Source: Chitinophagales bacterium (GTDB lineage Bacteria > Bacteroidota > Bacteroidia > Chitinophagales > Chitinophagaceae). From it: a DNA stretch of 64,000 nt. Under the pieces are notes generated by a model. That model was not told where the DNA came from. It was given only the letters and a program-made list of their open reading frames with translations, and searched no databases. The stretch is from contig JAATFV010000046.1 in assembly GCA_015655015.1 (NCBI GenBank), positions 1-64,000 of the forward strand. Reading direction: 5' to 3'. The position numbers were made by a program, and so were the translations under genes. Positions 4,776 to 35,224 of this stretch are shown here, piece after piece (positions within the stretch are counted from its first letter, which is position 1; every line of letters begins with the position of its first letter).

Positions 4776-4783
4776 CAAACTTA
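4776..4783 (-). promoter_or_regulatory. Bacteroidota -7 promoter element upstream of the first susC
   Basis: Read on the minus strand this is TAAGTTTG, an exact match to the Bacteroidota -7 consensus TAnnTTTG. A TTG lies about 16 bases further upstream, which is shorter than the usual 19-21 spacing, so the -33 half is weak. It predicts a very short 5' leader before the ATG at 4757. Confidence 0.4.
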
Positions 4784-12569: not shown

Positions 12570-14036
12570 TTATGGGTTTTGTACCAGGTCGGGATTGGCT
12601 GCCATAATATATTGCGGGAACCTGAGCACCAGTCTTTCGGGCTTCAGCGTATAAGTGGCGGTGATATTCCCGGCGTCGTCATAAATATTATGTGTTGTTC
12701 CTACCGTGGAACTGTATTGCGGATCAACGGAAAGCCGGCGCATATCGAACCAGCGCTCGCCGTTCATGGCAAATTCCCGTATTCTTTCTTCCAGGATGAA
12801 TTTTGTCAGTGATACCTGGTCGTCAGCGATAGCAGCAGGAACAGGGGCGTCCACGGCAGGCATCCTGTTGCTCCTGAACACATTCATATCCGCGGCAGCT
12901 CCGCTCAGATCACCCATGCGTGATTTACATTCCGCACTTAATAAATAGATATCAGGAATATTTACACCTAAGTTCGAGTACCCCTTTCCATAACCTCTAA
13001 GCATACCAAGCGGATATACCGAAGCAAAGCCAAATGAAAAGGACGTAAAAAACTGCTTTCTCAGATCACTCGCCTGGTACAAGGCTGCCGCCTGCGGCGT
13101 AATGACCATCCCGGAAAACAGATAGACATAAAGATTTAAGGCCGGTTTTAAAAAAAGGATTTCCTTATCCACATCGCTATTTGTTCTTGGCGGGCCGATA
13201 ACAGGATTTACAGGATAAAAGGCGCCGCCCGGAGCAAGCTCAAGATTAAAATTATACAAACCTATCTGAGTACCGGCATTCGCCAGATCGGCAATGGACG
13301 CTTTTAAAAGCGGCAGGGCCTTATCAAACTGTCCCATATAGACATATGCCTTCCCCAGGATAGCTTCTGCTGTGGCTTTCGATACTCTTCTGCTGCTGGT
13401 CGCCTTTACCGGCAAGTTGGGCAATGCCTGTGTAATATCCCGTTCTATCTGATCATAAACCTCCTGAACGCTGGCACGGGTAAATTTCGTTTGCGTTACA
13501 TCGGCCGTCAGTACGATGGGGATCCCGGGATCGGAAGATGCCGTCGCAGCGTTATAGGGCTTGCCGTAATAATTGACCAGTAAAAAATACACCCAAGCCC
13601 TTGCCGTCAGGGCCTCGGCCTGAAGGGATTTCTTTTGGGTATCGGCGCCTCCCTGTGAATTCAATACCTCATTGATGATTTTATTATAGGCATACAATTG
13701 GCGCACCGGCAGGGTCCATTCCGAAGAATTATCGGAAGGCAGGTACAGATCATCCGCCCACATAAAGGCTTTCTGGTCAGACAACGATGCCATACCAATA
13801 CCCAGGGAAGGAAAATAAGTAGCAGAGGCCGCTACCTCATCCGACAGCACGATCTGGGATGCCGGAGAGAGCGTAGTCCCGGCCCCGTTGAACAAAAGAT
13901 CATAATCCGATGTTTGCTGCGCGATCAGTTTTCCCGCAGGATTGATCTCCAAAAAGTCTTTTTTGCAGGAGCTGAAACTTACCCCTATCAGGAACAGACA
14001 AAAAAGTAAGGTCGTATTTCTATTAGAGTATAACAT
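12570..14036 (-). CDS. RagB/SusD family outer membrane lipoprotein
   Basis: A 488-residue SusD-like lipoprotein paired with the STN-type SusC just upstream (17-base gap). The lipobox is FSSC near residue 24, followed by KKDFLEINPAGKL. SusD features include RAWVYFLLVNYYGKPYN with TPR-like helices, YVYMGQFDKALPLLKASIADL, and near the C-terminus FILEERIREFAMNGERWFDMRRLSVDP, then LRFPQYIMAANPDLVQNP. It would bind ligand at the cell surface for the SusC barrel. The ligand is not predictable from sequence; the tlpA neighbour hints at something other than a simple glycan, since no glycoside hydrolase is nearby. Confidence 0.93.
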   Translation of the reverse strand: MLYSNRNTTLLFCLFLIGVSFSSCKKDFLEINPAGKLIAQQTSDYDLLFNGAGTTLSPASQIVLSDEVAASATYFPSLGIGMASLSDQKAFMWADDLYLPSDNSSEWTLPVRQLYAYNKIINEVLNSQGGADTQKKSLQAEALTARAWVYFLLVNYYGKPYNAATASSDPGIPIVLTADVTQTKFTRASVQEVYDQIERDITQALPNLPVKATSSRRVSKATAEAILGKAYVYMGQFDKALPLLKASIADLANAGTQIGLYNFNLELAPGGAFYPVNPVIGPPRTNSDVDKEILFLKPALNLYVYLFSGMVITPQAAALYQASDLRKQFFTSFSFGFASVYPLGMLRGYGKGYSNLGVNIPDIYLLSAECKSRMGDLSGAAADMNVFRSNRMPAVDAPVPAAIADDQVSLTKFILEERIREFAMNGERWFDMRRLSVDPQYSSTVGTTHNIYDDAGNITATYTLKPERLVLRFPQYIMAANPDLVQNP

Positions 14037-14053: not shown

Positions 14054-17000
14054 TTATAAGGTCAGGTGAGCGCCTATCGTAATGGTTTTCTGGTTAAATG
14101 GCATCGACCTGATGCCATACCGGGCATCCTGAAACTCGGGGTCTATTCCATAATGATTGGCCTTCCACAACATCAGGTTGGATAGTTGCACCCGGAATAC
14201 CAACCTTTCCGCATTCATTTTCTTTACCACGGATGGCGGCACTGCATAAGACAACGTGATATCTCTTATTTTTGCATAGGAAGCACTTACCACGTTGAGG
14301 TTACCATAAATGTAATAGTTGGTATTACGGCGCTGCCCGTCCGTTGCTGCATTACCTACAAAAGAGGGAATATTTGTCCGGGCTTCATCCCCCGGTTGTT
14401 TCCAGCGGCCGGCGAATTCCGCATTTAAGTTCCCGGCCTGGAAATCCTGGTTCTGAATAAATCCGCCCGGACCATTATTATAGGTATATACCGTATTCGC
14501 ATCCCGGAACATTACACTGCCCAGGTTGTAAACAATGTTCACGCTCAGCGCGAAAGATTTATAGTTAAACAGATTGGAGAGCCCGCCGCTCCAGACCGGC
14601 TGATAAACTCCCATATTGAGCACATCCCCGGGTTGAGCCGCACCAATGACCTTCGTTGTCTTTCCTGCTGCCTTGATGCGGGGATCGCCCAGACTGTCCA
14701 GGCCTGCATAATTATAAGCGAATACGGAAAATGCAGGATCACCCGCCATATAAACATTGTGCAATACCTGGTAATCACCGGTAACCGGGGCGTTCAGGAA
14801 ACCCAGGCTGCTGATCTTGTTCTTGTTATAAGACAGGGTAGCGGAGGTGGTCCAGCCAAAATCCCTTTTTCGGATATTGACGGTATTGATGATCACCTCC
14901 GCTCCCTTATTCGAAAGGCTGCCTACATTACCGTAGATAGCATTAAATCCGGTAATGGGATTCACGTTAAGATTCCCCAGTAAGTTGGAGGTCTCCTTCT
15001 TATAAAAGTCTGCAGAGCCTGTTATCCGGTTGTTGAATAACCCGAAATCCACACCAAGATTATATGTTTTCGTGCTTTCCCAGGTAAGGCTCGGGTTGGC
15101 TGCTGTTGAAATGGAAAAACCCTGTCCGCCCGGCGCATAGGGCAGTGCAACAGGAGCCAGTACATCATAAGAAGAGGCGCTGCCCGGGCTGGGCGAAATG
15201 CCGGTAATGCCATAAGTGACACGGAGAGCAAGATGGTCCACCTGTTTGGCGCCTTCCATCAATGTTTCTCCGCTCAGCAGCCATTTGAGTCCTACACTCC
15301 AGACGGGTTTTCTTTGTGCGGACCTGTTCAGCCCGAACAGGTTGCTTTGATCATTCCGCCAGCTGCCATTCACAGTATATTTTCTGTCAAATGTATAGGC
15401 AGCGTTGGCATAATAGGAGGTGAACCTGCTCCTTGGGACGGATTCTGATTCTCCGAAGAAAGTGTTGCCGCTTAAGATAGAACCGGTAGGGCTTTGGGCT
15501 AGTATCGGAGTCGCGATGCCGGCGGAAGTAAGGGTCTTATAATCCAGCGTAGCATAGGTCTCTGTCTCCAGGTCATAACCGTACACGGTGCTGTTGTTGA
15601 CAACAGTTCGCTGTTCCTGCGCCTCTTGTCCGAATAAGGCGGTAAGCTGGTGAAGGTCATTTTTCCATCCGTGGTCATAGACCAGCTGATCCCTGACAAC
15701 CCAGTTCTCCAGGGTGGCGTTGGATACGGTATACATACCGCCCGTTGCAGGCAGATTGTAGGTCACTGTTCCACCCGGGTCGGCAACGGCAAAGTTCAAC
15801 ACATTGATCCGTTGCTGATAATTCGTGTGGTCATCGTATTGCTGTGTTCTGTTTGCTCCCCTTATATAACCGTACAAACCTTCAAACCGGAGCCCTTTGA
15901 GGAGGTTGACGGTAACACCGCCGTTAAACCGGCCTAAAAAAGCGTAGCTTTTTGTGAACCCTGTCGTTACATTGTCCAGCGGATCATAGTTCAGACCGAT
16001 ACCACTCAATGCCTCTATAGCCGGACGCTGCTCCTCGCTGACATGGCCCATATAAGGCATAGAGATACTGTTGCCGGCAGGATCCCTGAATAGCTGATAG
16101 GGCAGGAACCGATCGTCGATGGCAATGGAACGGTTGGAGGAAGTCGTTGTATTGCTGAGATCCGTGATCAGGTATACTTTCAGGTATCTGGAAAAATTAA
16201 AATCCTGCCGGACATTTATCTTATACATATTATTCCGGTCGCCCGGCGTATAATCCCGGGTATTTGTATAGGCAAATGAGCCATAGACGGCATATTTGTC
16301 CGAACCACCGGATAGAGAGATGGTATGGTTCATCAAGCTGGCCGGCCGGTACCAGACGTTTTTTATTTGGCTGGCATTGCTGATATTTGACAGGCTGTCC
16401 AGTTTCGCATCTCCCTGGCCCTGCGTAAGAACACCCCTGTTGACATCATATAAGATCTGCCTGTCCGGGCTAAGGCCTGTGTGGTTGCCATAGGCGCTGT
16501 TATAAGCTGTCGAGGTGTTATACGGATAGTCCACCGGATCGAAAGTCTCCTTTGACGCCTGGATATATTGCGGGCTGTTCAGCACCGGAAAATATCCGAT
16601 ATCCGGCTTTCCCTGAAAATTGATAAACCCATCATAATCCACTTTTAGTTTCTCTCCTGTCCTGCCCTTTTTGGTAACGATCACGACTACTCCATTGGAG
16701 GCCCTTGCGCCCCAGATGGAAGCGGCAGTGGCATCTTTCAGCACCACGACACTGGCGATATCCTGCGGATTGATAGATGACACATTACTCACGTCCACCG
16801 CCATGCCATCCACCACGATCAGCGGATTCCTGCTGGCATTGATGGTCGTTAGCCCACGGATCAGAAAGGGATTCCCGTCCCTCGCCGCGGATGGTGAATT
16901 ATTAACTACCAGTCCGGGGATCAGGCCATCCAGACGCTGCAAAACATTCATGGAACTGCTCCGGTTCGCAACCGTACCCATGTCTGCGATGGAAAAAGAG

Positions 17001-17716
17001 CCTGCACTTCTCTCTTTGGAGATTTTCTGGTAGCCATTGCTCACAATTACCTGGACATCTTCGCCTTCTGCAACTTTTGTTTTTGCGGTGATCAACAGAT
17101 ACGTTCTGCCGGCAACCTTTATTTCGATGGGTTCTATGTTCACTGCGGTGACCACCAGCGTGTCATTTTCTCCGACACCAGGCATAGTGAAATATCCATC
17201 GGAATTGGTGCTTGTCACCTTTGCCGAATAAGAGAAATTGCCATTGCTATTGCTCATTTTAACACTTCCCTTCACTACAATATTGGCCAGCACCGGCTCC
17301 CCTTTTTCGTTGACTACCCGGCCCTTTATTTCCAGAGGTGGTCCTGACCGCTGCTCTTCTCCTGCCGTAAGAGCAGTTTCTTTTTTTTTCACGTCTTCCT
17401 TTAAAAGGATCACCACTGTTCTTTTCAGGATACTGTATGTCAGCGGTTGGTCTTTTAAGCAGGTATCCAGTACCCGGATAAGATCCTCATCCGTGGCAGT
17501 CAGCGAGACAGGTTTTGCATGCCGCAGATCGCTCTCCGCGAAGAAGAACTGGTACCCGGATTGCCGTTCCAATTCCCGGAATAGCTTTTCCAGGGGAATG
17601 TCCTTTGTTGTAAGCGTGATTTTTTGACTGAAAGCGCGGGCGTGTACCTGGAGGGCTCCAATAAGCAGTAAGAAAGCGGTCAATTTCATAACGCGCATAG
17701 TTTTGGTAAATAGCAT
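14054..17716 (-). CDS. SusC/RagA TonB-linked receptor with STN domain (signal-transducing type)
   Basis: About 1220 residues. After the signal peptide (MKLTAFLLLIGALQVHARAFSQ) comes an STN domain at about residues 35-105 (IPLEKLFRELERQSGYQFFFAE). Next are a carboxypeptidase-regulatory-like domain, the variant SusC motif VIVSNGYQKISKERSAGSF, and a plug with IWGARASNGVVVIVTKKGR. STN-bearing SusC proteins pass ligand occupancy to FecR in the inner membrane and so to the sigma factor; both genes lie immediately upstream. Possible starts are ATG 17716, 17698 and 17689. The one at 17698 shares the context AAAACTATG with the other STN-SusC gene in this window. Confidence 0.94.
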   Translation of the reverse strand: MLFTKTMRVMKLTAFLLLIGALQVHARAFSQKITLTTKDIPLEKLFRELERQSGYQFFFAESDLRHAKPVSLTATDEDLIRVLDTCLKDQPLTYSILKRTVVILLKEDVKKKETALTAGEEQRSGPPLEIKGRVVNEKGEPVLANIVVKGSVKMSNSNGNFSYSAKVTSTNSDGYFTMPGVGENDTLVVTAVNIEPIEIKVAGRTYLLITAKTKVAEGEDVQVIVSNGYQKISKERSAGSFSIADMGTVANRSSSMNVLQRLDGLIPGLVVNNSPSAARDGNPFLIRGLTTINASRNPLIVVDGMAVDVSNVSSINPQDIASVVVLKDATAASIWGARASNGVVVIVTKKGRTGEKLKVDYDGFINFQGKPDIGYFPVLNSPQYIQASKETFDPVDYPYNTSTAYNSAYGNHTGLSPDRQILYDVNRGVLTQGQGDAKLDSLSNISNASQIKNVWYRPASLMNHTISLSGGSDKYAVYGSFAYTNTRDYTPGDRNNMYKINVRQDFNFSRYLKVYLITDLSNTTTSSNRSIAIDDRFLPYQLFRDPAGNSISMPYMGHVSEEQRPAIEALSGIGLNYDPLDNVTTGFTKSYAFLGRFNGGVTVNLLKGLRFEGLYGYIRGANRTQQYDDHTNYQQRINVLNFAVADPGGTVTYNLPATGGMYTVSNATLENWVVRDQLVYDHGWKNDLHQLTALFGQEAQEQRTVVNNSTVYGYDLETETYATLDYKTLTSAGIATPILAQSPTGSILSGNTFFGESESVPRSRFTSYYANAAYTFDRKYTVNGSWRNDQSNLFGLNRSAQRKPVWSVGLKWLLSGETLMEGAKQVDHLALRVTYGITGISPSPGSASSYDVLAPVALPYAPGGQGFSISTAANPSLTWESTKTYNLGVDFGLFNNRITGSADFYKKETSNLLGNLNVNPITGFNAIYGNVGSLSNKGAEVIINTVNIRKRDFGWTTSATLSYNKNKISSLGFLNAPVTGDYQVLHNVYMAGDPAFSVFAYNYAGLDSLGDPRIKAAGKTTKVIGAAQPGDVLNMGVYQPVWSGGLSNLFNYKSFALSVNIVYNLGSVMFRDANTVYTYNNGPGGFIQNQDFQAGNLNAEFAGRWKQPGDEARTNIPSFVGNAATDGQRRNTNYYIYGNLNVVSASYAKIRDITLSYAVPPSVVKKMNAERLVFRVQLSNLMLWKANHYGIDPEFQDARYGIRSMPFNQKTITIGAHLTL

Positions 17717-17724
17717 ACCTTTGT

Positions 17725-17821
17725 GTTGTTTGCGTTTAACAATAAGATCTTCGTCGATTTTTATTCAACGGACTCAAACGTTTGCCGCTCCAAGGTTCCA
17801 GCCTTGAGCGGCTTTTGTTTT
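17725..17821 (+). ncRNA. Candidate antisense sRNA between fecR and susC (locus 1)
   Basis: On the plus strand, opposite to both flanking genes, TACCTTTG at 17716-17723 matches the -7 motif TAnnTTTG. The hairpin GCCGCTCcAAGG-TTCCAG-CCTTGAGCGGC at 17784-17812, followed by TTTTGTTTT, is a canonical intrinsic terminator. The RNA between them would be about 90 nt and fully complementary to the susC leader. Bacteroides cis-antisense RNAs of the DonS type lie in the same place at sigma/anti-sigma controlled loci. The hairpin apex GGTTCCAGCC is repeated at locus 2 (33464-33473). The -33 half of the promoter is not evident. Confidence 0.42.
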
Positions 17822-18959
17822 AGTTCCGGTACGGTCTTACAATTATTTTTCTGCCGTCGGTTTCAAATTTTATTTTTTTGGTTAATTCAAGTGTTTGCAG
17901 AAGTTCAGACAGGTTCACATTCCTGGAAATTCCTCCTCCGAATGTCTCATTTATATTCCCTTCGTATGTCACCTCAATATTGTACCATCTTGCTACCTGC
18001 CGCATAATGCTCCGGATATCCATTGAATGAAAGCGAAACATGCCTTCCCGCCAGGCTACAATATCTTCTGTATCCACCTTTTCTATTTTTCCATCCGTAT
18101 ATTGTTCCCCTGGCCGCAGGATCACAGTATTGACTCTTGCGGATCCTTGTATCAGCGTGGTACGCATATTTGCTTCATCGTCGTAAGCATTTACATTAAA
18201 CTCCGTCCCCAGATCCTCTATGACGGCCCCTTTTGTTTCTATCCTGAACGGACTGGCGGCATCGTGTTTCACTTTAAAATAGGCTTCTCCCGTCATAGAT
18301 ATCCGTCGTTCGCCCGCGCTGAACCGAAGAGGATAACGGATGCGGGAGGCTGCATTGAGCCAGACCGTTGAAGCGTCGGGTAGTTTGATCATCAATTCCT
18401 GCCCATTGGCAGTTACCACTTCATTATACTGCTGGCCGGTGCCGGCCGGCGTTCCCTTATAGCTGATGCCGCCTTCTGCATCTTTATAGATCTCCAGGTC
18501 GCCGTCCCGGGCCACCAATCCTTCTTTTGTATTATCCAGGTCGATCAAGCTGCCATTTCCCAACTTCAGCAGAGCTCCTTTATGGCCAGGAGGTCTATTG
18601 GTTATGGCAGCCCGGGCAACCGGTCCGGATATTCGTCCGCGGTTCAAAAAAAAGAATAGGGCCGCACCTGTCACCAGCAATAATACGGCGGCGGCAACCC
18701 GTCCGTAACGGAAGCTGATACGCCGGACCCTGGCCGGTGCACTGTCGATGGAAAGGACAGCAGTCAGTATCTGTTCCGAAATTCCGGAAGGCAGTTCGAC
18801 AGGTGATAGATCCATTCCCGGGTAACGCAAAGCCAGCTCTTCCAGCGTCTGCCGGGCATCGGGATGCCGGACAAGCTCCAGGAACTCTCTTCTTTCCTCA
18901 TCGGATGCTTTACCCTCCAGGTAAAGGCGGAACAATGATTCTAAGCGTTCTCTATTCAT
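17820..18959 (-). CDS. FecR family anti-sigma factor
   Basis: Inner-membrane anti-sigma regulator that holds the cognate ECF sigma factor until signalled by the STN domain of the SusC downstream; about 379 residues from the chosen ATG at 18959 (MNRERLESLFRLYLEGKASDEE). The longer frame to 19046 overlaps the sigma gene and starts with an unlikely sequence. Layout: cytoplasmic anti-sigma helices 1-70, one membrane span (VAAAVLLLVTGAALFFFL) near 80-100, the FecR beta domain with LPDASTVWLNAASRIRYP and GEAYFKVKHDAASPFRI, and a C-terminal DUF4974 domain (MDIRSIMRQVARWYNIEVTYEG). Its stop lies in the T-tract of the antisense terminator. Confidence 0.93.
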   Translation of the reverse strand: MNRERLESLFRLYLEGKASDEERREFLELVRHPDARQTLEELALRYPGMDLSPVELPSGISEQILTAVLSIDSAPARVRRISFRYGRVAAAVLLLVTGAALFFFLNRGRISGPVARAAITNRPPGHKGALLKLGNGSLIDLDNTKEGLVARDGDLEIYKDAEGGISYKGTPAGTGQQYNEVVTANGQELMIKLPDASTVWLNAASRIRYPLRFSAGERRISMTGEAYFKVKHDAASPFRIETKGAVIEDLGTEFNVNAYDDEANMRTTLIQGSARVNTVILRPGEQYTDGKIEKVDTEDIVAWREGMFRFHSMDIRSIMRQVARWYNIEVTYEGNINETFGGGISRNVNLSELLQTLELTKKIKFETDGRKIIVRPYRN

Positions 18960-19014
18960 ACTATTATATTGACTCCGGAAAACTGTCCGGATTATTAGTC
19001 TTCTCAAAAAAATC

Positions 19015-19593
19015 TTAGTGTAATAATAGGAGGGCCCACAGGACAAGATCCAGGCGACTGACCAGGAAAGCTCTTACAACCCTCAGGGCGATAGTCAGAT
19101 GTACACTGACCGTAGCTTGTGAGATCCCTAATTTTTCGGCAATTTCTGCCCGGCTTATTCCTTGAATTCTGGATAATTGAAAGATTTTCCGCTGCTGCGG
19201 ACTGAGGCGTTCCAGGGCTTGCTTCAGCAATTCCTTTAACTGATAGTCATCCGATAGGGTTGCTCCGAATGGCGTCTCCGCCGGGTTCCAGGACAATAGT
19301 TCTTCCTTACGTTTCCCTTCAAGAGCCATTTTTTGTAAAGCCGTAAGACTTAGGTTTATCACAATCCGATACAGCCAGGCTGGAAAATTTTCTATACCGG
19401 CCAGTTTCTGCCTGTTCTTCCAGATACGAACAAAGCTGTCCTGCACTACTTCTTCCGCAATAAGTCTGTCCTGCGTATACCGAAGAGCAACCGTATTTAC
19501 CCGATCTTTATAATGATAGAACAGTTGTCTGAAAGCCTGCTGATTGCCGGCAGCCACTGCATGAATGACTGTTATTTCATCATAATAATTCAC
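19015..19593 (-). CDS. ECF-type RNA polymerase sigma-70 factor
   Basis: A 192-residue extracytoplasmic-function sigma factor that should direct transcription of the susC-susD-tlpA genes downstream. Region 2 spans about residues 10-95 (AFRQLFYHYKDRVNTVALRYTQDRLIAEEVVQDSFVRIWKN). Region 4 spans 118-175 (ALERLSPQQRKIFQLSRIQGISRAEIAEKLGISQATVSVHL) with its helix-turn-helix. It ends in a hydrophobic tail (LVLWALLLLH), common in Bacteroidota members of this family. The order sigma, fecR, STN-susC, susD is standard. The fecR ATG at 18959 lies 55 bases after its stop. Confidence 0.94.
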   Translation of the reverse strand: MNYYDEITVIHAVAAGNQQAFRQLFYHYKDRVNTVALRYTQDRLIAEEVVQDSFVRIWKNRQKLAGIENFPAWLYRIVINLSLTALQKMALEGKRKEELLSWNPAETPFGATLSDDYQLKELLKQALERLSPQQRKIFQLSRIQGISRAEIAEKLGISQATVSVHLTIALRVVRAFLVSRLDLVLWALLLLH

Positions 19594-21713: not shown

Positions 21714-24269
21714 CTAAAAATCAATCTTGATCAAAGTCCTTACTCCCCATTGCGGCGCATTGGGATGTTCTAAATAGGTAAACCGCCGGACCAGGTCTAC
21801 CCGCACCAGCTTAAAAATGTTTCCAATGCCAACGCTGCCTTCGACATAGGGACCGTTGTTCAGGGAGTATGTTGTCGGTACTCCCCCGGCATTTACCGGG
21901 AAACGGAGCAAAGACGGATCATAGGCAGGGTTATTTTCATTTCTTATGCCTCCCCACAAGGCTTTTACATTTATGATCTCCCTCCATTTCAACCGTTTAA
22001 GTAAGGGGACCTTATTGAAAAGGAAACCATTAAAGTGATGATCTATATTGATCGAAGCATAGTGGTCGCTGACAAATTCAAGGAAATTCATCAGATTATA
22101 AGACTGCAATTGAAAAGAGTAAGTCTGATTGGCGCGATGGATATCCAACAAAGGATAGGGAACTTTGCCAAAAAGGTAAGCGCCCTCGACCGTCACATCC
22201 GTATAGCCGAGCTGAGACAGGTAAAACCGCTTATTGATATTGATCGCTATATGCTGATAAGTATATTCTCCCCCTAAAAGCCCCTGAATACCCTGATTGT
22301 ATCTTAACGTCATGACAGGATATTTATCTGTGATAGGAGTCCGGTACAATTTACCCTGGTAAAACTTTTCATGGGGTGCATACCGCAGTCCCAACGAAAG
22401 CTCGGTGGTCTGAATCCCGCTGACCGTTGCGGGAAGATCATTGGCAAGCTTCTGAAAATATAAGGAGCCGCCAGGGTGCTGGTCCCACCATTTTAATCCC
22501 AGCGAGTAGGAAAAATGATTTTCCCACTCGTGTATATAATCCAGCCTGAAGATGTCATTGTAGAGCAGCTGGTCATTAACTCCCCGTTTGAAAGAAAGGA
22601 GAAAATTATTCTCCTGGACAAATTGCAGCTCCAGCCCGGGAATCTTCGTATCGTGCTGGAAACTGGCTCTTACAAAATGCTGCGGGAAAGTATAAATCGA
22701 CTTATTATTAATGGAATAGGCGCCGCTTAAAAAATATTTGAATTTATCATCCCGGGTGCCATAAGCCACGTAGGTCTCAAAATAATATCTCCTGCTCAGG
22801 GCAGCGGTCGTTCTGCCTCCCAGCCGTGGCCGGAAGCCTTCCACCGGGTTAAAACTATAAAATGCATTCAATGGACCTATCTCGAAGGGGCCTGTATTCT
22901 TATATCCGACTAATAGTATGGTGGCAATATCCATCGCCCTCCTGAATGACGGCACTTTCTGAAGGCTGTCGATATTTTTATAAACGAGTGAGGTATCCTT
23001 GTCCAGGGTATCGGGCCTGTGCGAAGACCAGTAGCCGGTGTCTTTCTCCTGCGCATCCGGCAGGGTGACCAGGGCGGGGCCCTCATAAATTTCTTTTGGT
23101 CTTTGCCTTCCCACCACAAAGCTATCCAGCTTAACGAGGCGTTCGCCGAATATACCGCCGCCCCTGTTCTTATTTAAGCCAAAGTCCATTTTCGCGTCGC
23201 TCTGGCTAAGCTTATATTTATCATCGTTACTCTTATCGAAGGTGAGCCGGATCTCCAGCTGGCGGACAAAATTGAGGTTTATTTTCTTGTCGACAGACAG
23301 AACGGCGCCCTGCACGGCATAGTTGCTGTCCATGGTAATATACAACACACCTTCAAACAGCAGATCAGTATTATTGCGGGGCCAGAAACCCAGCTCGATC
23401 AGCTGAGGGGTCTGGTCTTTGATCGTATCCCGGATGAAAAATTTATAAAAGGCCGGCGCACTATTGGCGATAGGACTCAATAGCTGGTTGGTCATCAACA
23501 GGATATTGTTGTCATAAATATTGATATCCTGGTACATAAAATTCAGGTAGGCGGAGAGCCCTTTGTTGTCGATGAAGTTCTCGTCGTATTTGACTTGCTT
23601 ATCAGCCCTGATGATCTGCTTGTTGGCATAGGGCGATCGCCGGTAATAATTGTCGGACAGCTTCTCTTCCATGTACAGCGGCAGCAAGGTTTTTCCGCCT
23701 ATCGCGCTTGAATCCTGCTCACGAAAAAGGAATTGATATTTTTTGAACATCCGCTTATTCCTGAATGAATCCGAAAGGTTCCCCAGGGATACGATCATCC
23801 GTTCATATTTTCGATATTCGGTATAACTATAACTCTCCGGCCTGTTCTGCGACTTATGGGCAATCACTTGCCGGATAAGATCTACTGCCGGGTTGTTCTT
23901 ATTGGAATATTTTTTCTTCTTTCCTGATCTAACCACTACCTCGCTCAGTTTGTCGGCATCCGGTACCAATCGGATATTTATGACCTGTTCAATTCCGGGA
24001 GCTACTTCAAAACGGGCCGTCTTATACCCGATCGCCGACACAGTGATCTGCGTAAACGCATTCATTGACTTCAACGTAAAATTACCCTGGTCATTTGTAT
24101 TAACGCCTATTCCCTTCCCGGAAAAGGCAACGCTTGCCATAGGAACCGGCATCTTTGTCCTGGTATCCGTCACCGTTCCTGAAACGATCGTGCCCTGCGC
24201 AAAAAGAGAAGTCGGGTATGCTATGAGGAATATCTCTAAAAGCCATTTTATGCTGACTGGAAAATTCAT
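21714..24269 (-). CDS. DUF5686 and carboxypeptidase-regulatory-like domain protein
   Basis: An outer-membrane-associated protein of about 851 residues from ATG 24269, chosen because MNFPVSIKWLLEIFLIAYPTSLFAQ is a clean signal peptide. GTG 24332 and ATG 24320 are longer alternatives. An N-terminal carboxypeptidase-regulatory-like domain (GTVTDTRTKMPVPMASVAF ... NTNDQGNFTLKS) covers about residues 28-110, followed by VVVRSGKKKKYSNKNNPAVDLIRQVI and a long DUF5686 region with alternating beta-strands to the C-terminus. Such proteins are widespread in Bacteroidota and lack a settled function. The PAP2 gene precedes it on the same strand, its stop overlapping the GTG in GTGA, so translational coupling from that start is possible. 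Confidence 0.9.
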   Translation of the reverse strand: MNFPVSIKWLLEIFLIAYPTSLFAQGTIVSGTVTDTRTKMPVPMASVAFSGKGIGVNTNDQGNFTLKSMNAFTQITVSAIGYKTARFEVAPGIEQVINIRLVPDADKLSEVVVRSGKKKKYSNKNNPAVDLIRQVIAHKSQNRPESYSYTEYRKYERMIVSLGNLSDSFRNKRMFKKYQFLFREQDSSAIGGKTLLPLYMEEKLSDNYYRRSPYANKQIIRADKQVKYDENFIDNKGLSAYLNFMYQDINIYDNNILLMTNQLLSPIANSAPAFYKFFIRDTIKDQTPQLIELGFWPRNNTDLLFEGVLYITMDSNYAVQGAVLSVDKKINLNFVRQLEIRLTFDKSNDDKYKLSQSDAKMDFGLNKNRGGGIFGERLVKLDSFVVGRQRPKEIYEGPALVTLPDAQEKDTGYWSSHRPDTLDKDTSLVYKNIDSLQKVPSFRRAMDIATILLVGYKNTGPFEIGPLNAFYSFNPVEGFRPRLGGRTTAALSRRYYFETYVAYGTRDDKFKYFLSGAYSINNKSIYTFPQHFVRASFQHDTKIPGLELQFVQENNFLLSFKRGVNDQLLYNDIFRLDYIHEWENHFSYSLGLKWWDQHPGGSLYFQKLANDLPATVSGIQTTELSLGLRYAPHEKFYQGKLYRTPITDKYPVMTLRYNQGIQGLLGGEYTYQHIAININKRFYLSQLGYTDVTVEGAYLFGKVPYPLLDIHRANQTYSFQLQSYNLMNFLEFVSDHYASINIDHHFNGFLFNKVPLLKRLKWREIINVKALWGGIRNENNPAYDPSLLRFPVNAGGVPTTYSLNNGPYVEGSVGIGNIFKLVRVDLVRRFTYLEHPNAPQWGVRTLIKIDF

Positions 24270-28325: not shown

Positions 28326-29852
28326 CTAGAATCCCGGATTATTCGGCAACAGGTTCGGGTTCACATCTGTCTCCTGCTTTGGCACCGGAAAGAGCAGCTG
28401 GCTGCTCGTGAATGTCGCTCCCCATACCGTTTTATGTCCTACAAAGTCATCCCAGTTACCCGTTACATCATTATGGACCTTGAGGGTGCGCAACATGTCG
28501 AACCACATCTTGTTCTCAAAACACAGCTCATAATAACGCTGCAGCCAAACCTCCTGTTCGAAAGCCGACTGAGACAATGCCCCGATCGGCGCAAGGTTGG
28601 CCCTTGCCCGGATCAGGTTCACATAATTCACTGCATCGCTGTTGGGACTGCCTTCAGCACGGTTGGAAGCTTCCGCATACAGGAGGTAGACATCTGCCAG
28701 CCGGTACACGGTATAATTCAGATCGGATTTAGCGGTATTCCTTACCGCCACGGAGTCGAACCACTTGTAGATATAATGCGCTTTGAACACCACGGTGTCC
28801 GGTGTCTTGATGCCGGGATACTTTGTATAAAAGAACTGTCTTTCCTGTATCCGCTTATCGCCCGGGAGGAAAGAATGGATAAACTGATCTGTCGGGTAGA
28901 CCGACCCATATTCATCCGAATATTTCGAGATCCCCGAATAGTTAGGAATGGTCAGGGCTGTCAGCGGAAGGATGGACGTGTTGGTAGAGGTAGAAGGAAC
29001 GCTGGCCGAGTAATTCACCTGAAAGATGAACTCCCCCCGGTTCTTATTGGCAGGATCGTTCATATCCCTGTAATTCGGGAACAGGCTATAGCCCCCGTTG
29101 GTGATGACCGCCTTCGACCGTTTAGCGGATTCTGCATAATACTGATCTCCTCCTTTGATGGCAGCGCCCGCATAAGTCAGGTAGACATCCGCCAGGATCG
29201 ATTCGATGGCGCTCCTGGACACCAGTCCCGTATTATCCTGCCAGGGCAGGGTAGACGCTTCGGCCGTGAGCAGATCGGGGATGATAATGCTGTCGTAGAT
29301 ACTTTTTGCAGCAGTGCGGGCGACTTTCAGGTTCAGGTCTTTCGGCACCGTTGTGACCATGGGCACCGCCCCATACATCCGTGCCAGGTAGAAATAATAC
29401 AGGGCCCGCATGGCATGGGCCTCGGCCAGCATATTATTCTTTGTCGAGTCAGGCATTACAGCGGAGCCGACGGCAGCAAGGCTCTGCAGGGCCAGATTAC
29501 AGGCTCCGATGCCCATATATAGCTGCTGCCACCAGGTGTCTACATAAAAAGAGGTGCTATTGTAGCTCAGGTTCTGAAAATTGATAAAGCCTGTCTGGCC
29601 CAGATCGCTGTTCGACTTGCCGGTCATGAACTCCATCAGGTTCCAGGTATTGCCGCCATAAGAAGAAGGTTGGCCATAGGCGAGACCCTGCATCTTCGAA
29701 TAACACCCGTTGGCCAATGCCCGGGCTTCTTTGGTATTGCTGATCGTAAATCCGGGACTGAGAAAATTAGTCGGTTTCTCTTCCAGGAACTTTTTACAGG
29801 AGCCCAGCACCAGGATAAGAAATCCAATACTTATATATTTAATAGGTAACAT
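28326..29852 (-). CDS. RagB/SusD family outer membrane lipoprotein
   Basis: A 508-residue SusD-like lipoprotein. The signal peptide has its lipobox at VLGSC (residue 19), followed by KKFLEEKPTNFLSPGF. Characteristic segments are AHAMRALYYFYLARMYGAVPMV, the TPR-like helices after it, YRLADVYLLYAEASNRAEG and, near the end, EQEVWLQRYYELCFENKMWFDMLRTLKV followed by LLFPVPKQETDVNPNLLPNNPGF. It pairs with the STN-SusC gene 21 bases upstream. A long open frame on the opposite strand (28200-29522) is only its antisense shadow. Confidence 0.94.
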   Translation of the reverse strand: MLPIKYISIGFLILVLGSCKKFLEEKPTNFLSPGFTISNTKEARALANGCYSKMQGLAYGQPSSYGGNTWNLMEFMTGKSNSDLGQTGFINFQNLSYNSTSFYVDTWWQQLYMGIGACNLALQSLAAVGSAVMPDSTKNNMLAEAHAMRALYYFYLARMYGAVPMVTTVPKDLNLKVARTAAKSIYDSIIIPDLLTAEASTLPWQDNTGLVSRSAIESILADVYLTYAGAAIKGGDQYYAESAKRSKAVITNGGYSLFPNYRDMNDPANKNRGEFIFQVNYSASVPSTSTNTSILPLTALTIPNYSGISKYSDEYGSVYPTDQFIHSFLPGDKRIQERQFFYTKYPGIKTPDTVVFKAHYIYKWFDSVAVRNTAKSDLNYTVYRLADVYLLYAEASNRAEGSPNSDAVNYVNLIRARANLAPIGALSQSAFEQEVWLQRYYELCFENKMWFDMLRTLKVHNDVTGNWDDFVGHKTVWGATFTSSQLLFPVPKQETDVNPNLLPNNPGF

Positions 29853-29873: not shown

Positions 29874-32800
29874 CTAAAATCCTGCCGTCAGGCCAAGGTT
29901 CCATACTCTGGGACGGGGGTAGGAGAAAAAATCCAGGTTCTGCGAGAACGCGGCGTTTGTCCCATATAAGGTGTTGAACGTATCCACTTCCGGATCATAT
30001 CCTGTGTACTTGGTGTGGAGGAAAAGATTCTGCACGCTGGCCGCTATCCGCAGCTTCGTCAGCTTCATTTTGCGGGCCGAAACCTCCGGCAAGGTATATC
30101 CCAATGTGAAATTCTGGCCGCGGATAAAAGATCCGTCTTCTACCCACCAGGTATCGAAATGTGAATCCTGGGCAAACTTGTAATTCCGCACTTGTGATAC
30201 CATCGTATTCTGGTGATCCGGCGTCCATCCGTTCAGTACGGTGGCCAGGCTGTTGGCGATCGTTTGCCGGTCTTCGCTGGAATGTTTGAACGTAGCAGCG
30301 GTATTCACTCCCTGAACGAAGCGGATGTCGAAGGAGAAATCCCAGCCTTTATAATTGAGGGTGCTGCTGAAGGTCCCTGTCCACTTGGGATAAGCCTGTC
30401 CGATAATGCTGTAATAGGGACTTCCATCCTTATTGTAGATATACTTCCGGTCTCCGGGTTTCAGATTATGTGTGGCGGCGTCAGCGGCCTCGTCTGTACT
30501 ATAAGTACCCAGGCGTGTCATGCCGTAGAAACTGCCGATCGGGTGTCCCACCCGCAGGACATTGGTTTGTCCCAGGAAATTAGGACCGGGGAAGATATCT
30601 GCATTGCCGTCATTCAGCTTGATGATCTTATTCTTGTTCGTGGAAAAAATGAAGCTGGTGCTCCAGGTAAGGTCCCTTGTCTTTACATTTACCGTAGTCA
30701 GGTTTACCTCCAGCCCGGTATTGCGCACACTGCCGACGTTTTCATAAACATTATTCTGCACCATTCCGGCGGACCAGGGGATCGGAGCCTGCAGAAGAAG
30801 GTCTTTGGTCGTGCGATTGTAGTAGTCTACATTCATATTGATCCGGTCCTTGAACAGGCCAAGCTCAAGCCCTACATCAGCCTGTTGGGACTTTTCCCAT
30901 TTCAGGTTCGGATTACCGATATAATTGGGCAGCAAGGTAGATTGATTGGCGCCGCCCAGGACTACATTACCCGGCGACACTTGTCCCAGGGACTGTCCGT
31001 AACCGATTTCCGTATTACCCGTAAATCCGTAACTGCCGCGGAGCTTCATGTAACTGATCGTCTCGCTGTGCTTCAGGAATTCTTCCTCTGACATACGCCA
31101 GGCGGCGCCCAGCGAAGGGAAGAATGCAAACTTGTTATTTTCTCCGAACCGGGAGCTGCCGTCATAACGACCTGTGGCCGTGAAGAGATACTTGTCATCG
31201 ATATTATAGGTGATACGGGCATAATAAGAATTCATCTGCCAGGCGGGATTAGCCAGGGACTGGGTATTCGACCGGACGGAACCAGCCTGCAGGGCCGTCC
31301 ACTGGAAATTATCGTCGATAAAATTCTGGGCTTCCGCATCTACCCATTCCTGCTTGTATTTTTGCCAGCTGGCGCCCAGCAATGCTGTCAGCTTCTGATG
31401 GTCATTGATCTTTTTGTTCCAGGTCAGATAATTCTCCGACTGCCAGAAATAGTTGTAATAGGAATTAATATGCGCCTCTCCTCCCTGATCCTGGGAAAGG
31501 TGCGGCAGATCCTGGGCTGAATAGAAATTATTCTTCTGTCCGCTCAGGTAATACCCGAAATCCGATTTGAAATCCAGGTCTTTGGTGAGATGGATGGTAA
31601 AATAGGCATCTCCCAGCGCCTGCAGGGTATTGTTCAGGGTATACCGGCTTTGGGAAATATGTACAGGATTGGGACCGCCTTCCAGACCGGCGATATCATT
31701 GTTGCCGGCCCAGCTTCCATCCGGGTATTTGATCGGCACGATGGGAACTTCTTCCGTCACCATCCGGGGTACGTTGAGAGAGCCATTTCCATCGGACACC
31801 ATTCGCTGCGTACTTTGGATAACCGAGATATATCCCCCGAACTTCAGCCAGTTATTTACGTCATTGTCCAGGGTGAGCTTGGCTGAATACCGCTTGAACC
31901 AGCTATTGACCATGATCCCATTCTGGTCGAGGTATCCCAGGGAGGCGCTATAGACGGATTTCTCGCTTCCTCGCTGGATATTGATAAAGTGATCATGGGA
32001 CCAGGCCGGCTTGTAGGTCTCTTTCTCCCAGTTGGTATTGTACAGTGGCTTATCGTTGGCATCGAACAGCTTGGGCAGGCTGGCATGGTTCAGGGCGACA
32101 GGCGGGGTCCAGATGCCGCCCAGGGGATCGAATTTCGTGCCGTTGGCAAAAGAAAGATTATAGATTTTGACAAATTCATCGGAATTGAGGGTCTTCAGGT
32201 GACGGGACAATTCACTTACATTGACATCACCGTCATAAGTCACCCGGGTGTCGCCGCGACGCCCCCGTTTGGTCGTCACCATGACGACTCCATTAGCGCC
32301 CCGGGCCCCGTAAATGGCCGTGGAAGAGGCATCCTTCAATACTTCCAGGGAAGCTATTTCATGGGGGTTCAGCGTATTGATATCCACGCCGGTCACTCCG
32401 TCTACCACATATAAGGGGTCCAGGCTGGAATTGATCGAGCCGATACCCCGGATACGGACCTTGGCCGGCTGGCCTGGCGCACTGCTGTTTACATTGACCT
32501 CTACTCCGGCGATCTTGCCTTCCAGCGCCTGGGTGACAGTGGGCACCGGTCTGTCAGTCAGCTGCTCGCCTTTGAGGCTGGCTACGGCGCCGGTAAGATC
32601 TGATTTCTTTGCTGTGCCATACCCGATCACCACCACATCGTTCAATCCCGCCGCTATTTCTTTCAGCTGGACGGTAATATTGGTCTGACTGCCGATAGAG
32701 ACGGTCTGGGTCTGATAACCGACCGAAGAGAATTCCAGCCTGACGCCCTCGTCCGGAACGCTGAGCCTGAACCTGCCGTCTCCATCCGTGGTGGTCCCGT

Positions 32801-33377
32801 TCGCACTGCCTTTGACAGTCACGGAGATACCGGCGAGGGGATCCCCTTTCTCGTTGGTAACTGTTCCGGTGATCGTATGCACCTTTATCTCGATCTCCGG
32901 TACATAAGGAGCTATATAACCGGACCAATCTTTTGTATAAGAATGACCGTACCGGCTGTCCCGGCGGTAAGAAATAACGATCGTATTGCCTACCTGCTCG
33001 TATTGCAGCATGGTATTTCTTAGGAGGGCTTCCAGGATATTATGGACAGACCGGCCTTTGAAGGCAAGGTTGAGATTGCCTACCCTCTTTAGGTCTTTCT
33101 TATTGTAGGCGAAGGAGAAGGGCGTCAGCTTTTGGATCTTTTCCAGGGCCGCCACCAATGGCTCGCCCTTTAGTTCCAGGTTTATAAAAACCTTGCTGAT
33201 ATCCTGCCCCCTGGCATCCCTGGCGCTCAGCAGCTGGATGCTGCATAGAAAGATCAGGATAATGAAAAAGCTGATACGCATAATGTTAAGCAATCGTTTT
33301 TTGGTTTGAGTGCGTCCTTCCCGGCGACCCTCCGGAGAATGGGGACGCCCAAACGCTGACAATAAAGAAAATGTCAT
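29874..33377 (-). CDS. SusC/RagA TonB-linked receptor with STN domain (signal-transducing type)
   Basis: About 1167 residues. Residues 1-32 are a basic extension before the apparent signal peptide MRISFFIILIFLCSIQLLSA; ATG 33281 is an alternative start. I keep 33377 because its context AAAACTATG matches the other STN-SusC gene. Then come the STN domain (about 65-140: LVAALEKIQKLTPFSFAYNKKDL), a carboxypeptidase-regulatory-like domain (ITGTVTNEKGDPLAGISVTVKG), the SusC motif VVVIGYGTAKKSDLTGA, a plug with IYGARGANGVVMVTTKRGR, and the barrel. The sigma and fecR genes upstream make this a self-regulated uptake locus. No catalytic gene lies next to the pair, so the substrate is unknown. Confidence 0.94.
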   Translation of the reverse strand: MTFSLLSAFGRPHSPEGRREGRTQTKKRLLNIMRISFFIILIFLCSIQLLSARDARGQDISKVFINLELKGEPLVAALEKIQKLTPFSFAYNKKDLKRVGNLNLAFKGRSVHNILEALLRNTMLQYEQVGNTIVISYRRDSRYGHSYTKDWSGYIAPYVPEIEIKVHTITGTVTNEKGDPLAGISVTVKGSANGTTTDGDGRFRLSVPDEGVRLEFSSVGYQTQTVSIGSQTNITVQLKEIAAGLNDVVVIGYGTAKKSDLTGAVASLKGEQLTDRPVPTVTQALEGKIAGVEVNVNSSAPGQPAKVRIRGIGSINSSLDPLYVVDGVTGVDINTLNPHEIASLEVLKDASSTAIYGARGANGVVMVTTKRGRRGDTRVTYDGDVNVSELSRHLKTLNSDEFVKIYNLSFANGTKFDPLGGIWTPPVALNHASLPKLFDANDKPLYNTNWEKETYKPAWSHDHFINIQRGSEKSVYSASLGYLDQNGIMVNSWFKRYSAKLTLDNDVNNWLKFGGYISVIQSTQRMVSDGNGSLNVPRMVTEEVPIVPIKYPDGSWAGNNDIAGLEGGPNPVHISQSRYTLNNTLQALGDAYFTIHLTKDLDFKSDFGYYLSGQKNNFYSAQDLPHLSQDQGGEAHINSYYNYFWQSENYLTWNKKINDHQKLTALLGASWQKYKQEWVDAEAQNFIDDNFQWTALQAGSVRSNTQSLANPAWQMNSYYARITYNIDDKYLFTATGRYDGSSRFGENNKFAFFPSLGAAWRMSEEEFLKHSETISYMKLRGSYGFTGNTEIGYGQSLGQVSPGNVVLGGANQSTLLPNYIGNPNLKWEKSQQADVGLELGLFKDRINMNVDYYNRTTKDLLLQAPIPWSAGMVQNNVYENVGSVRNTGLEVNLTTVNVKTRDLTWSTSFIFSTNKNKIIKLNDGNADIFPGPNFLGQTNVLRVGHPIGSFYGMTRLGTYSTDEAADAATHNLKPGDRKYIYNKDGSPYYSIIGQAYPKWTGTFSSTLNYKGWDFSFDIRFVQGVNTAATFKHSSEDRQTIANSLATVLNGWTPDHQNTMVSQVRNYKFAQDSHFDTWWVEDGSFIRGQNFTLGYTLPEVSARKMKLTKLRIAASVQNLFLHTKYTGYDPEVDTFNTLYGTNAAFSQNLDFFSYPRPRVWNLGLTAGF

Positions 33378-33399
33378 AGTTTTGATTGTTTTAAATGAT

Positions 33400-33491
33400 G
33401 AGAACTTGTTTAAGACAGGATACCTTCTTTTTAACCGAAAAGGTATTTTTACAACCTGCTCCGGGTTCCAGCCGGAGTAGGTTTTTTATTT
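33400..33491 (+). ncRNA. Candidate antisense sRNA between fecR and susC (locus 2)
   Basis: The plus strand carries the hairpin AACCTGCTCCGG-GTTCCAG-CCGGAGTAGGTT at 33453-33483 (one G-U pair in the stem) running into TTTTTTATTT, a standard intrinsic terminator pointing away from susC and against both genes. Its apex GGTTCCAGCC is identical to locus 1 while the stem pairs differ and still pair, a covariation pattern. Upstream, TACCTTC near 33421 only partly matches a -7 motif, and ATACCTT/AAGGTAT form another inverted repeat at 33420-33446. The RNA start is therefore uncertain. Confidence 0.4.
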
Positions 33492-33505: not shown

Positions 33506-34501
33506 TTATTTGCATCCTTCCCCGTTCAATTCGACATGATTGCCAATCAGCCGGTAATCCATATTATTGATTTTCGACAATACCTTAATGATCTGTTCCA
33601 GCGGCTCACCGCTGGTGAAAGTGGCTGTCACATTGCAGTTTTCCAGGGCAGGATTCACCAGGACGATCGTCTGGTGGAATCGTAACTCCAGCTCCTGCAC
33701 CGCCTCTTTCATGCTGACATCGTTGAACAGGAGATACGGTTTTTTCCAGGCGATGACCTCACCCGCATCCACCCGGATCTTTCTGAGCCTGTTATGGACC
33801 TTATCCACGATGAGCTGTTCATTGCCCCGGAGAATACCGAAATCCCCTGCGCCATTTTCCACCCGCACCTTGCCCCTGGTCACCGTGACGATAATATTCC
33901 TATCATGTTCATTGATATCGAAAGCTGTGCCCAGCACGGTTGTTTTCACATTGCCCGTATGGACGATAAAAGGCCTCTTATCATGTCTTATATCGAAATA
34001 CGCTTCGCCGGAGAGCCTTACTTCCCTTGTTGGTCCGGTAAATACGGAGTCGAAATCAATATGAGCGCCCTGGTGCAGCAATACCTTACTGCCATCGGAC
34101 AAGGTGATACACTGGTCTGTGACCGGTTGGGGAGAAACAGCTAATGGGACAAACGTGCGGGAGACTGGCCTGCGCCAATAGTAGCGTCCGATAAAAAAGG
34201 AGGAGATCGCTATAATGATCAGGGCTGCTGTATAGCGTAAATAAGATCTGTAAGCTGGTATTTTGTGAATAACAGGGGGCTGCCTGCTGATAATATATTC
34301 GAGGATCTTGTTGGCGGTCTGGCCGTCCTGGCTGTATACGGGAAGATCCTCATTCCAGGTCTCTTCGATCAGCTGTTTTACCGTATCATCATATTCACCA
34401 CGGCGCAGCAGGTCGAACAATTCATCTTTTTCCTGTTGTGTAGAGGTCTTTTCATAATACCTGTAAAACAGGTAAGCCAATCGTTTTGAATGGTCCATCA
34501 T
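33506..34501 (-). CDS. FecR family anti-sigma factor
   Basis: A 331-residue inner-membrane regulator. The cytoplasmic N-terminus (MMDHSKRLAYLFYRYYEKTSTQQEKDELFDLL) binds the sigma factor. One membrane span (YLRYTAALIIIAISSFFIG) lies near residues 85-105. The FecR domain has LSDGSKVLLHQGAHIDFDSVF and GEAYFDIRHDKRPFIVHTG, and a C-terminal DUF4974 domain (SMKEAVQELELRFHQTIVLVNPAL) would contact the STN domain of the SusC. It lies between the sigma gene (90-base gap) and susC (128-base gap holding the antisense terminator). Confidence 0.94.
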   Translation of the reverse strand: MMDHSKRLAYLFYRYYEKTSTQQEKDELFDLLRRGEYDDTVKQLIEETWNEDLPVYSQDGQTANKILEYIISRQPPVIHKIPAYRSYLRYTAALIIIAISSFFIGRYYWRRPVSRTFVPLAVSPQPVTDQCITLSDGSKVLLHQGAHIDFDSVFTGPTREVRLSGEAYFDIRHDKRPFIVHTGNVKTTVLGTAFDINEHDRNIIVTVTRGKVRVENGAGDFGILRGNEQLIVDKVHNRLRKIRVDAGEVIAWKKPYLLFNDVSMKEAVQELELRFHQTIVLVNPALENCNVTATFTSGEPLEQIIKVLSKINNMDYRLIGNHVELNGEGCK

Positions 34502-34591: not shown

Positions 34592-35224
34592 TCAGTGATG
34601 AAGTAAGTAGTGCAGGAAGAGGAGGATGGGCAGGAGCGTGTCTGCATGAAAATGCAGGATGCCTCTCAGGGTCTTGAGTGCGTGCACCAAATGCGTCTTT
34701 ACGGTGTTGCGCGAGATATTCAGCCGGGAGGCTATTTCTTCGTGTTTCATCCCCTGGTGACGGCTTAGGGTAAATATGAGTTTTTGCTGGGGAGAGAGCC
34801 GGCTCAGCGCCTCTTGAAGTCTAAGCTCATTTTCTTTAGTAAGGAGTTGATCTTCAACCGTATCGGTGTCCTGATCCAGGAGACTCGCCATTTGTTTGCG
34901 GGCTGAATCCTCTTTTGCTAAGAGTTTAAGCGTGTCGAATACCTGGTTGCGGGCGATAATAAACAGCCAGGAATCAAATCGCAGGACATGCCGTACTTTA
35001 TCACGGCTCAGCCATACTTTCAAAAAAACGTCCTGCACTAATTCATCTGCCAGGTTACTGCTCCCGAATAAATGCAAGGCATAGGAATAGATCCTCTCCC
35101 GGTAATGATGGAACAGGATTCCAAAAGCCTTTTCATTACCTTCAGCCACACGGACAAGCAAATCGGTCTCGTTGGATAAAGGTTGTACTCTTATGGCAAT
35201 TTTTCGTGTAGTAGGTTCAACCAT
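34592..35224 (-). CDS. ECF-type RNA polymerase sigma-70 factor
   Basis: A 210-residue ECF sigma factor for the SusCD genes downstream. Region 2 (about residues 25-95) is AFGILFHHYRERIYSYALHLFGSSNLADELVQDVFLKVW. Region 4 (about 135-190) is ALSRLSPQQKLIFTLSRHQGMKHEEIASRLNISRNTVKTHL with its helix-turn-helix. The C-terminal tail is hydrophobic and histidine-rich (LLPILLFLHYLLHH), a hydrophobic tail like that of the other sigma factor at 19015. Start at ATG 35224. Some 290 bases separate it from the divergent S9 oligopeptidase gene. Confidence 0.94.
   Translation of the reverse strand: MVEPTTRKIAIRVQPLSNETDLLVRVAEGNEKAFGILFHHYRERIYSYALHLFGSSNLADELVQDVFLKVWLSRDKVRHVLRFDSWLFIIARNQVFDTLKLLAKEDSARKQMASLLDQDTDTVEDQLLTKENELRLQEALSRLSPQQKLIFTLSRHQGMKHEEIASRLNISRNTVKTHLVHALKTLRGILHFHADTLLPILLFLHYLLHH

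Follow-up and report, generated by a model that had tools for sequence, protein, structure and literature searches.

Does the short gap between a fecR gene and the susC-like gene next to it encode an RNA of its own on the opposite strand, and what could such an RNA do to the transporter gene that it faces? The question is raised by the window (the whole stretch of 64,000 nucleotides from a Chitinophagales bacterium that was analysed here), in which Pfam identifies two ECF sigma - FecR - SusC - SusD cassettes, both on the minus strand.

The focal cassette and its predicted antisense RNA

In the focal cassette, the genes of an ECF sigma factor (19015..19593), a FecR anti-sigma factor (17820..19046), a susC-like TonB-dependent transporter (14054..17716) and, downstream of susC, a susD-like protein (12570..14036) all lie on the minus strand and were assigned with Pfam, which finds Plug and barrel domains in the transporter and an STN domain below the cut-off; the STN scores of the SusC proteins of the two cassettes are 26.0 and 24.9 bits, the Pfam cut-off being 28.4. 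The susC-like gene is the presumed target. The gap between fecR and susC measures 103 nt, and the first-pass annotation had suggested that its plus strand gives rise to an RNA of about 90 nt opposite the susC leader. The required elements are indeed all present, i.e. a -7 promoter element, a terminator hairpin and a T-run, and together with the match of covariance model (CM) R1 and the fold they predict an antisense RNA of ~93 nt at 17729..17821 (+), the start being set by the spacing from the -7 box and both ends being read from the sequence.

The -7 element TACCTTTG (17716..17723, +), assigned by its sequence and by the offset typical of the family, overlaps the start codon of the transporter gene, as its first T pairs with the A of the susC ATG (17714-17716) on the other strand. 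It is followed by a helix P1, whose 5' arm GTTTGCGTTT (17728..17737, +; supported also by family covariation) and 3' arm GGACTCAAAC (17770..17779, +) are placed by the R1 and R2 alignments, with one C-U mismatch at this locus. The terminator hairpin GCCGCTC(C)AAGG-TTCCAG-CCTTGAGCGGC with its loop TTCCAG can be recognized directly in the sequence at 17784..17812 (+); it begins 68 nt from the start of TACCTTTG, with 60 nt between the two elements, and runs into the T-run TTTTGTTTT (17813..17821, +), which overlaps the positions (17820-17822) where the fecR stop codon lies on the other strand. The fold of the focal RNA has a z of -3.6, and model R1, which was not trained on this site, matches it at 17716-17817 with 52.0 bits and an E of 7.8e-6 in the 8.1-Mb genome.

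Gaps between fecR and the next gene across the genome

The genome contains at least 150 FecR matches in its 8.1 Mb and thus a very large set of ECF/anti-sigma cassettes. The best 150 of 174 FecR candidates were scored and their downstream regions taken; 141 of these regions contain a long ORF downstream, and 139 have a gap of 1-420 nt. These gaps run from fecR to the next long ORF, which was taken without a check of its SusC identity. Strong terminators, defined by a T-run preceded by a hairpin of dG <= -14, are found in antisense direction in 90/139 gaps and in sense direction in 3/139, and two dinucleotide shuffles of the antisense strand gave 3/139 and 4/139. At the loose threshold of dG <= -9, the counts among the 139 gaps are 97 for antisense, 20 for sense and 29-35 for the shuffles. 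The antisense unit thus exceeds chance. Of the 70 strong repeats whose 3' side is rich in T, 49 have a hairpin start at 60-79 nt from the susC start codon, while the distance between hairpin and fecR varies from ~0 to >200 nt in the gaps of this genome; the hairpin thus keeps its distance from susC and not from fecR.

Where the gap measures at least 60 nt (122 loci), a CM match or an antisense terminator at the usual distance is present in 92 cases, and 30 loci have neither. With respect to the downstream protein, CM matches occur at 76/124 STN-bearing and 1/17 other loci (Fisher p 1.1e-5), a classification that is rough because the STN profile HMM was grown from just the two SusC proteins of the window. 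This association indicates that the RNA accompanies signalling-type transporters. STN-bearing loci without a CM match number 48/124, and 31/124 lack both a match and a normally spaced antisense terminator.

Fold, covariation and covariance models

In an alignment of 30 paralogs (MAFFT alignment A2, picked by the author as typical), RNAalifold found helix P1, formed by GUUUGGGUU with AACCCGAAC and separate from the terminator. As a source of the whole fold, A2 had to be abandoned, since RNAalifold missed the terminator due to the differing loop lengths. Both helices were therefore evaluated in alignment A4, which holds 16 paralogs in clean register (the 18 of A3 minus L084 and L062). In these 16 sequences, 95.0% of the cells of P1 and terminator are paired, both sides have changed in 11/19 pairs, and the covariation score is 0.579, compared with 0.243 after shuffling (reached in 0/500 shuffles) and with 0.12-0.22 when the structure is slid by 1-3 columns. 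In the 77 CM-fitted copies, changes on both sides are seen in all 19 pairs, in an alignment that leans towards the structure. Compensatory changes are hence found in two helices, P1 and the terminator. What is conserved in the family is the overlap of promoter and start codon, P1, the terminator stem and, in some of the copies, the sequence AAUAAGCAGUY within the P1 loop.

Two models were used for the searches, R1, which was built from the 16 paralogs with the focal locus left out, and R2, which was trained with the focal locus. In the genome itself, R1 gave at least 78 matches at E <= 1 (150/1965 candidates scored) and R2 at least 83 (150/1931 candidates scored). In 75 of the 78 cases, the R1 match is antisense and just downstream of a listed FecR, and 59 of these 75 are outside the training set; the remaining three are C140:44776, which is flanked by FecR and SusC, C49 and C15. 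R2 found no match at E <= 10 on 28 other loci of the genome (83 kb). The motif AATAAGCAGTY occurs at 33 genome sites, compared with 8 for the reversed control, and according to a coordinate comparison by the author, 24/33 sites are inside listed CM matches. The model-based search of fecR-susC gaps that had been proposed at the outset thus returned many matches with compensatory changes, and the predicted RNA is a member of a large paralogous family of structured antisense RNAs, with ~80 putative copies in this genome.

The strand of the RNA

Inverted repeats can fold on both strands, but a G-C to G-U change is tolerated in an RNA helix and reads as an A-C mismatch on the opposite strand. When inverted repeats were collected by Watson-Crick pairs only (score >=7, n=94), which makes the count strand-blind, their mismatches amounted to 55 GT and 12 AC as read on the antisense strand, and a T-run follows the hairpin in 63/94 cases in antisense direction and in 0/94 in sense direction. 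The P1 helices of the 30 paralogs have 40 GT mismatches and 1 AC, a ratio that is not strand-blind because the columns were picked by RNAalifold, which accepts G-U and not A-C. The 38 loci from other genomes, which leave out L215 (model positions 15-104 only) and the weak second match of L211, contain 32 qualifying repeats with 22 GT and 2 AC, and the T-run is antisense in 28 and sense in 1. Wobble pairs and T-runs on the antisense strand both identify this strand as the predicted RNA, and the asymmetry argues against both a DNA operator and a leader element on the sense strand.

The predicted promoter box on the susC start codon

In 54 of the 139 gaps, the box TANNTTTG is located exactly at the start-codon offset, and the next commonest offset accounts for 4; the sense strand of the same 139 gap stretches has 2 matches at any offset. 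Model position 1 corresponds to the complement of the A of an ATG in 72 of 77 CM matches, and each of these 72 ATGs continues in frame for 200 codons or more without a stop. Since the left end of the model had been placed on the ATG of the 16 training sequences, this start-codon test is independent only outside the training set. At the loci of other genomes, the ATG is present in 37/38, and in 36 of these 37 no stop codon interrupts the frame for 200 codons or before the locus ends.

The promoter may extend further into the coding region. Codon 5 is Ala in 48/72 susC genes, and the Leu of codon 6 is CTT in 14/15, a count given without a background value. It is probable from these sequences that codons 5-7 of susC embed the upstream promoter element of the antisense RNA, which we infer to be its -33 element, and the start and early codons of the transporter gene appear constrained by the antisense promoter. 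The Ala codon at position 5 is GCT in 36/48 genes, compared with 17% GCT among the Ala codons further inside the same genes, and there are N-terminal peptides like MQxxALC with GCT for Ala5, e.g. at L075, L121 and L096 of this genome.

The shared hairpin apex and the second cassette

The hairpin apex GGTTCCAGCC occurs twice in the window, at 17794-17803 and at 33464-33473. It had been pointed out that the apex is identical at the two loci while the stems differ and still pair, and it was found at both hairpin tips. The further idea that the apex is a conserved feature of the family, read by a common protein or RNA partner, was not borne out. GGTTCCAGCC occurs 32 times in the genome, and among the 30 matches that were examined by eye and by fold energy, only the two loci of the window are terminator hairpins. 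Of 74 antisense hairpins with a T-run, 71 have distinct loops, and the loop GTTCCAG is common to the focal locus and locus 2 alone. TTCCA is found in 4/74 loops, which just equals the 95th percentile that the most frequent 5-mer reaches in shuffled loops, and GTTCCA in 3/74, compared with a 95th percentile of 2 for the commonest 6-mer, i.e. there is a slight excess at most. As the terminal loop is highly variable, a shared partner at the apex is not supported, and the genome-wide matches of GGTTCCAGCC together with the diversity of the loops led to the rejection of the apex as a conserved binding site. A U-turn motif (YUNR), which was considered as well, is present in 21/74 loops and in 16.4 shuffled loops, which is not convincing. 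A partner that reads P1 or the P1 loop is possible.

Locus 2 comprises genes of an ECF sigma factor (34592..35224), FecR (33506..34501), a susC-like protein (29874..33377) and a susD-like protein (28326..29852), all on the minus strand and assigned by Pfam. By sequence and CM, its -7 element TAGTTTTG (33377..33384, +) is positioned on the susC start codon just as at the focal locus. The match of R1 and the fold predict a divergent antisense RNA of ~99 nt at 33389..33487 (+), with a start that is predicted as well, and sequence and fold place the terminator hairpin with the loop GTTCCAG at 33453..33483 (+), with a T-run to 33487. The R1 match has 21.6 bits and an E of 0.046 within the window, and locus 2 is absent from the genome-wide list of R1 matches (E <= 1). 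The fold of 33389-33490 has a z of -4.0, and a clear helix P1 was not found, as P1 positions are mismatched in the R1 and R2 alignments; two other stable hairpins take its place at 33389-33450 (+). Locus 2 is a divergent family member. Further structural subtypes may exist among those gaps of this genome with an antisense terminator in which R1 matches weakly or not at all; they include L032, L044, L047 and L058.

In the scanned parts of the window, CM matches at E <= 10 are confined to the two cassette sites. Two more SusC-like genes, at 1578-4778 (-) and 50960-54076 (+), are without a Pfam STN domain, an adjoining FecR or an antisense RNA match, and there is a weaker third SusC-like match at 23931-24185.

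Comparison with known systems

DonS and other cis-antisense RNAs of PULs are known from Bacteroides (Cao et al. 2016, as cited in PMC7366714, PMC10994844, PMC9723704 and PMC11697453). In PMC7366714, DonS is described as representative of cis-antisense RNAs of 78-128 nt that are divergent to susC homologs and affect them negatively, and a sigma-ABfr promoter is given for 52% of the cis-antisense RNAs of B. thetaiotaomicron. Repression of its PUL by DonS is reported in PMC11697453 and PMC7366714, with a mechanism that is called unknown in PMC11697453, where DonS is also said to oppose a host-glycan PUL of the kind that is typically under ECF sigma/anti-sigma control. PMC10994844 mentions 32 PUL-associated asRNAs in B. 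thetaiotaomicron, and PMC9723704 mentions asRNAs for 15 PULs in B. fragilis. The first-pass annotation had noted the DonS-type position, and this holds: the predicted RNA is short, lies on the opposite strand and divergent to a susC homolog, and has a -7 element of the Bacteroidota type and an intrinsic terminator. With their predicted ends, the ~93 nt of the focal RNA and the ~99 nt of locus 2 are within the DonS length range of 78-128 nt. What differs is the number, with 78-83 CM matches in this genome compared with 15 or 32 PULs in Bacteroides, and, as far as a comparison with DonS by its description goes, the shared covarying fold and the -7 box that is locked to the start codon. We file the family as a structured variant of the DonS kind, on the basis of that description of DonS.

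In Bacteroides, the multicopy sRNAs FopS/GibS target the translation initiation regions of susC genes, and FopS is described as an RNA of ~65-70 nt whose 5' seed is single-stranded, which has one terminator hairpin and which binds several mRNAs in trans (PMC11697453). The present family resembles them as multicopy sRNAs at susC, but FopS RNAs have several target mRNAs in trans. Structured cis-antisense RNAs that are complementary to a leader are also known from plasmids, such as CopA, whose hairpin loops could start the pairing; the likeness lies in the structured cis-antisense RNA facing a leader, whereas the loops of the present family lack a convincing YUNR excess. No Rfam family reached its gathering cut-off in the window or on the loci tested, and at loose thresholds the RNA is touched by weak matches of two miRNA models and of ncS54, which overlaps one copy with 22.5 bits at a cut-off of 43. 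In the open-licence literature, we found no paper on such antisense RNAs in Chitinophagaceae.

Proposed action and alternatives

What could be the function of such an RNA? Comparison of the copies demonstrates, at the level of predicted transcripts, that the unit exists, on which strand and in which fold, that it is tied to the susC start codon, and how many copies there are. Judged from the sequences, the focal site very probably encodes a cis-antisense RNA of ~93 nt that belongs to a paralogous family of ECF sigma/FecR/STN-type SusC cassettes and that would keep its own susC off until a signal arrives. By analogy to DonS, repression of its own susC is the most likely effect. A promoter of the housekeeping type, with its -7 box over the susC start codon, would initiate an antisense transcription that heads away from susC and stops at the intrinsic terminator, either short of the fecR stop codon or right at it. 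This RNA would form P1, the loop of which reads AAUAAGCAGUY in some copies, followed by the terminator hairpin, and its complementarity to the leader of the susC mRNA would extend from about -12 to about -105. Pairing with its own susC leader could act by occluding ribosome loading, by nuclease cleavage of the duplex or by a collision of RNA polymerases, and susC would stay off until a substrate signal releases the ECF sigma factor. Hypothetically, a brake that is set by the housekeeping polymerase on an ECF-driven mRNA could sharpen the threshold between on and off. As the copies each face the start of their own transporter gene, there appears to be a built-in antisense brake on many signal-controlled uptake systems.

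What alternatives exist for this proposed antisense repression? The inverted repeats fold on both strands and are located in the susC leader, and one could therefore regard them as a structured 5' leader element of the sense-strand susC mRNA that is seen mirrored, but this is highly improbable in view of the wobble mismatches on the antisense strand (55 GT/12 AC in the hairpins, 40/1 in P1), the T-runs that are antisense only (63 vs 0 of 94), and the 2 sense occurrences of TANNTTTG at any offset vs 54 antisense at one. That the hairpin simply terminates the ECF-fecR operon, in one or both directions and without any antisense RNA function, is suggested by the focal T-run touching the fecR stop codon; yet such a role can hardly be expected when strong terminators face against fecR transcription in 90/139 gaps and with it in 3/139, when the hairpin keeps its distance to susC and not to fecR, and when P1 and the -7 box would be left unexplained. 

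An inert RNA, made by a promoter and a terminator that serve only for transcriptional interference or for blocking fecR read-through, is unlikely as well. Promoter and terminator alone would suffice for such a purpose, and the terminal loop with its little sign of constraint would fit, but P1, which is outside the terminator, covaries and has its wobble pairs on the RNA strand. We also consider it quite unlikely that the copies are a FopS-like family of trans-acting sRNAs with overlapping targets. Paralogs do have the arms of P1 in common and some of them also the AAUAAGCAGUY loop, and the best trans duplexes, with a median of -77 kcal/mol per RNA, exceed the median of -30 obtained with mononucleotide-shuffled targets. 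Every copy, however, is opposite its own full complement, among 57 copies the median duplex energy is -175 kcal/mol in cis vs -47 in trans, and AATAAGCAGTY is inside CM matches at 24/33 genome sites. The strongest trans pair has -125 kcal/mol, and cross-talk between close paralogs is thus possible. In this family, a defined fold, strand and promoter position and ~80 natural variants in a single genome make structure, function and specificity directly testable. The sigma/anti-sigma pair would then not be the whole switch, as most such cassettes of this genome (92/122 with a gap >=60 nt) appear to have an RNA component.

Spread in other genomes

A 23-nt pattern from the 5' part of the RNA was found at 39 loci of other genomes, all of which match the CM (44-92 bits), 38/39 over the whole length and L215 over positions 15-104. 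The titles of the entries include Chitinophagaceae bacterium, Puia, Flavitalea, Niastella, Terrimonas, Pinibacter, Flavihumibacter, Ferruginibacter, Pseudobacter and similar names, and in some cases Bacteroidetes or Sphingobacteriales bacterium; as some loci (5 identified) share the genus label of the window, they represent other genomes, and not in all cases other genera. The identity of L188 and L244 shows that Puia dinghuensis is among the genomes with this label. FecR is on the right side in 37/39 and SusC in 36/39, and the loci without FecR (2) or SusC (3) have at most 106 nt of sequence on that side. In L211, there is a second, shortened CM match at 129-195 (+) with 23.4 bits and an E of 0.095, beside which FecR and SusC were not found, and which may be due to chance.

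For the spread in sampled genomes, R2 matches at E <= 0.001 were counted. They occur in at least 65/147 genomes and at least 43/92 genera of the same family, in at least 21/396 genomes of the class and in at least 15/296 of the phylum, all 15 being within the class; these are lower bounds, since 26 (family), 10 (class) and 13 (phylum) candidates were scored per genome and stricter filters applied. R1 matched 20/24 genomes with the genus label of the window, its own genome included, and 0/15 genomes that belong to the same order but to other families. In the searches of class and phylum, 29 loci were fetched, 10 from the same family and 19 from four other families, and 28 of them are between FecR and SusC; the 29th is truncated where its contig ends, with FecR on the expected side.

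There is a further, rather speculative thought, which we regard as possible but doubtful: many Chitinophagaceae and some other families of the class might possess four-part modules of sigma factor, anti-sigma factor, transporter and a dedicated structured antisense RNA with its promoter in the first codons of the transporter gene (-7 box on the ATG, upstream element in codons 5-7), and a single RNA-binding factor might recognize the conserved P1 domain with its AAUAAGCAGUY loop. If this were true, ~80 cassettes with different inducers would come under one global post-transcriptional control.

A model-free spot check covered 67 fecR-ORF gaps of other genomes, with the own-genome locus L252 left out (69/70 loci used, 67 of them with an ORF downstream). 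Antisense terminators were seen in 6/9 gaps from the same family, 1/4 from the same order, 12/24 from the same class and 4/30 from the same phylum at dG <= -9, a threshold at which the shuffles of the own genome reach 29-35/139. The box TANNTTTG is exactly at the ATG in just 4 of these 67 gaps, and the exact promoter overlap is therefore a trait of the RNA family and not of fecR-susC gaps throughout the phylum.
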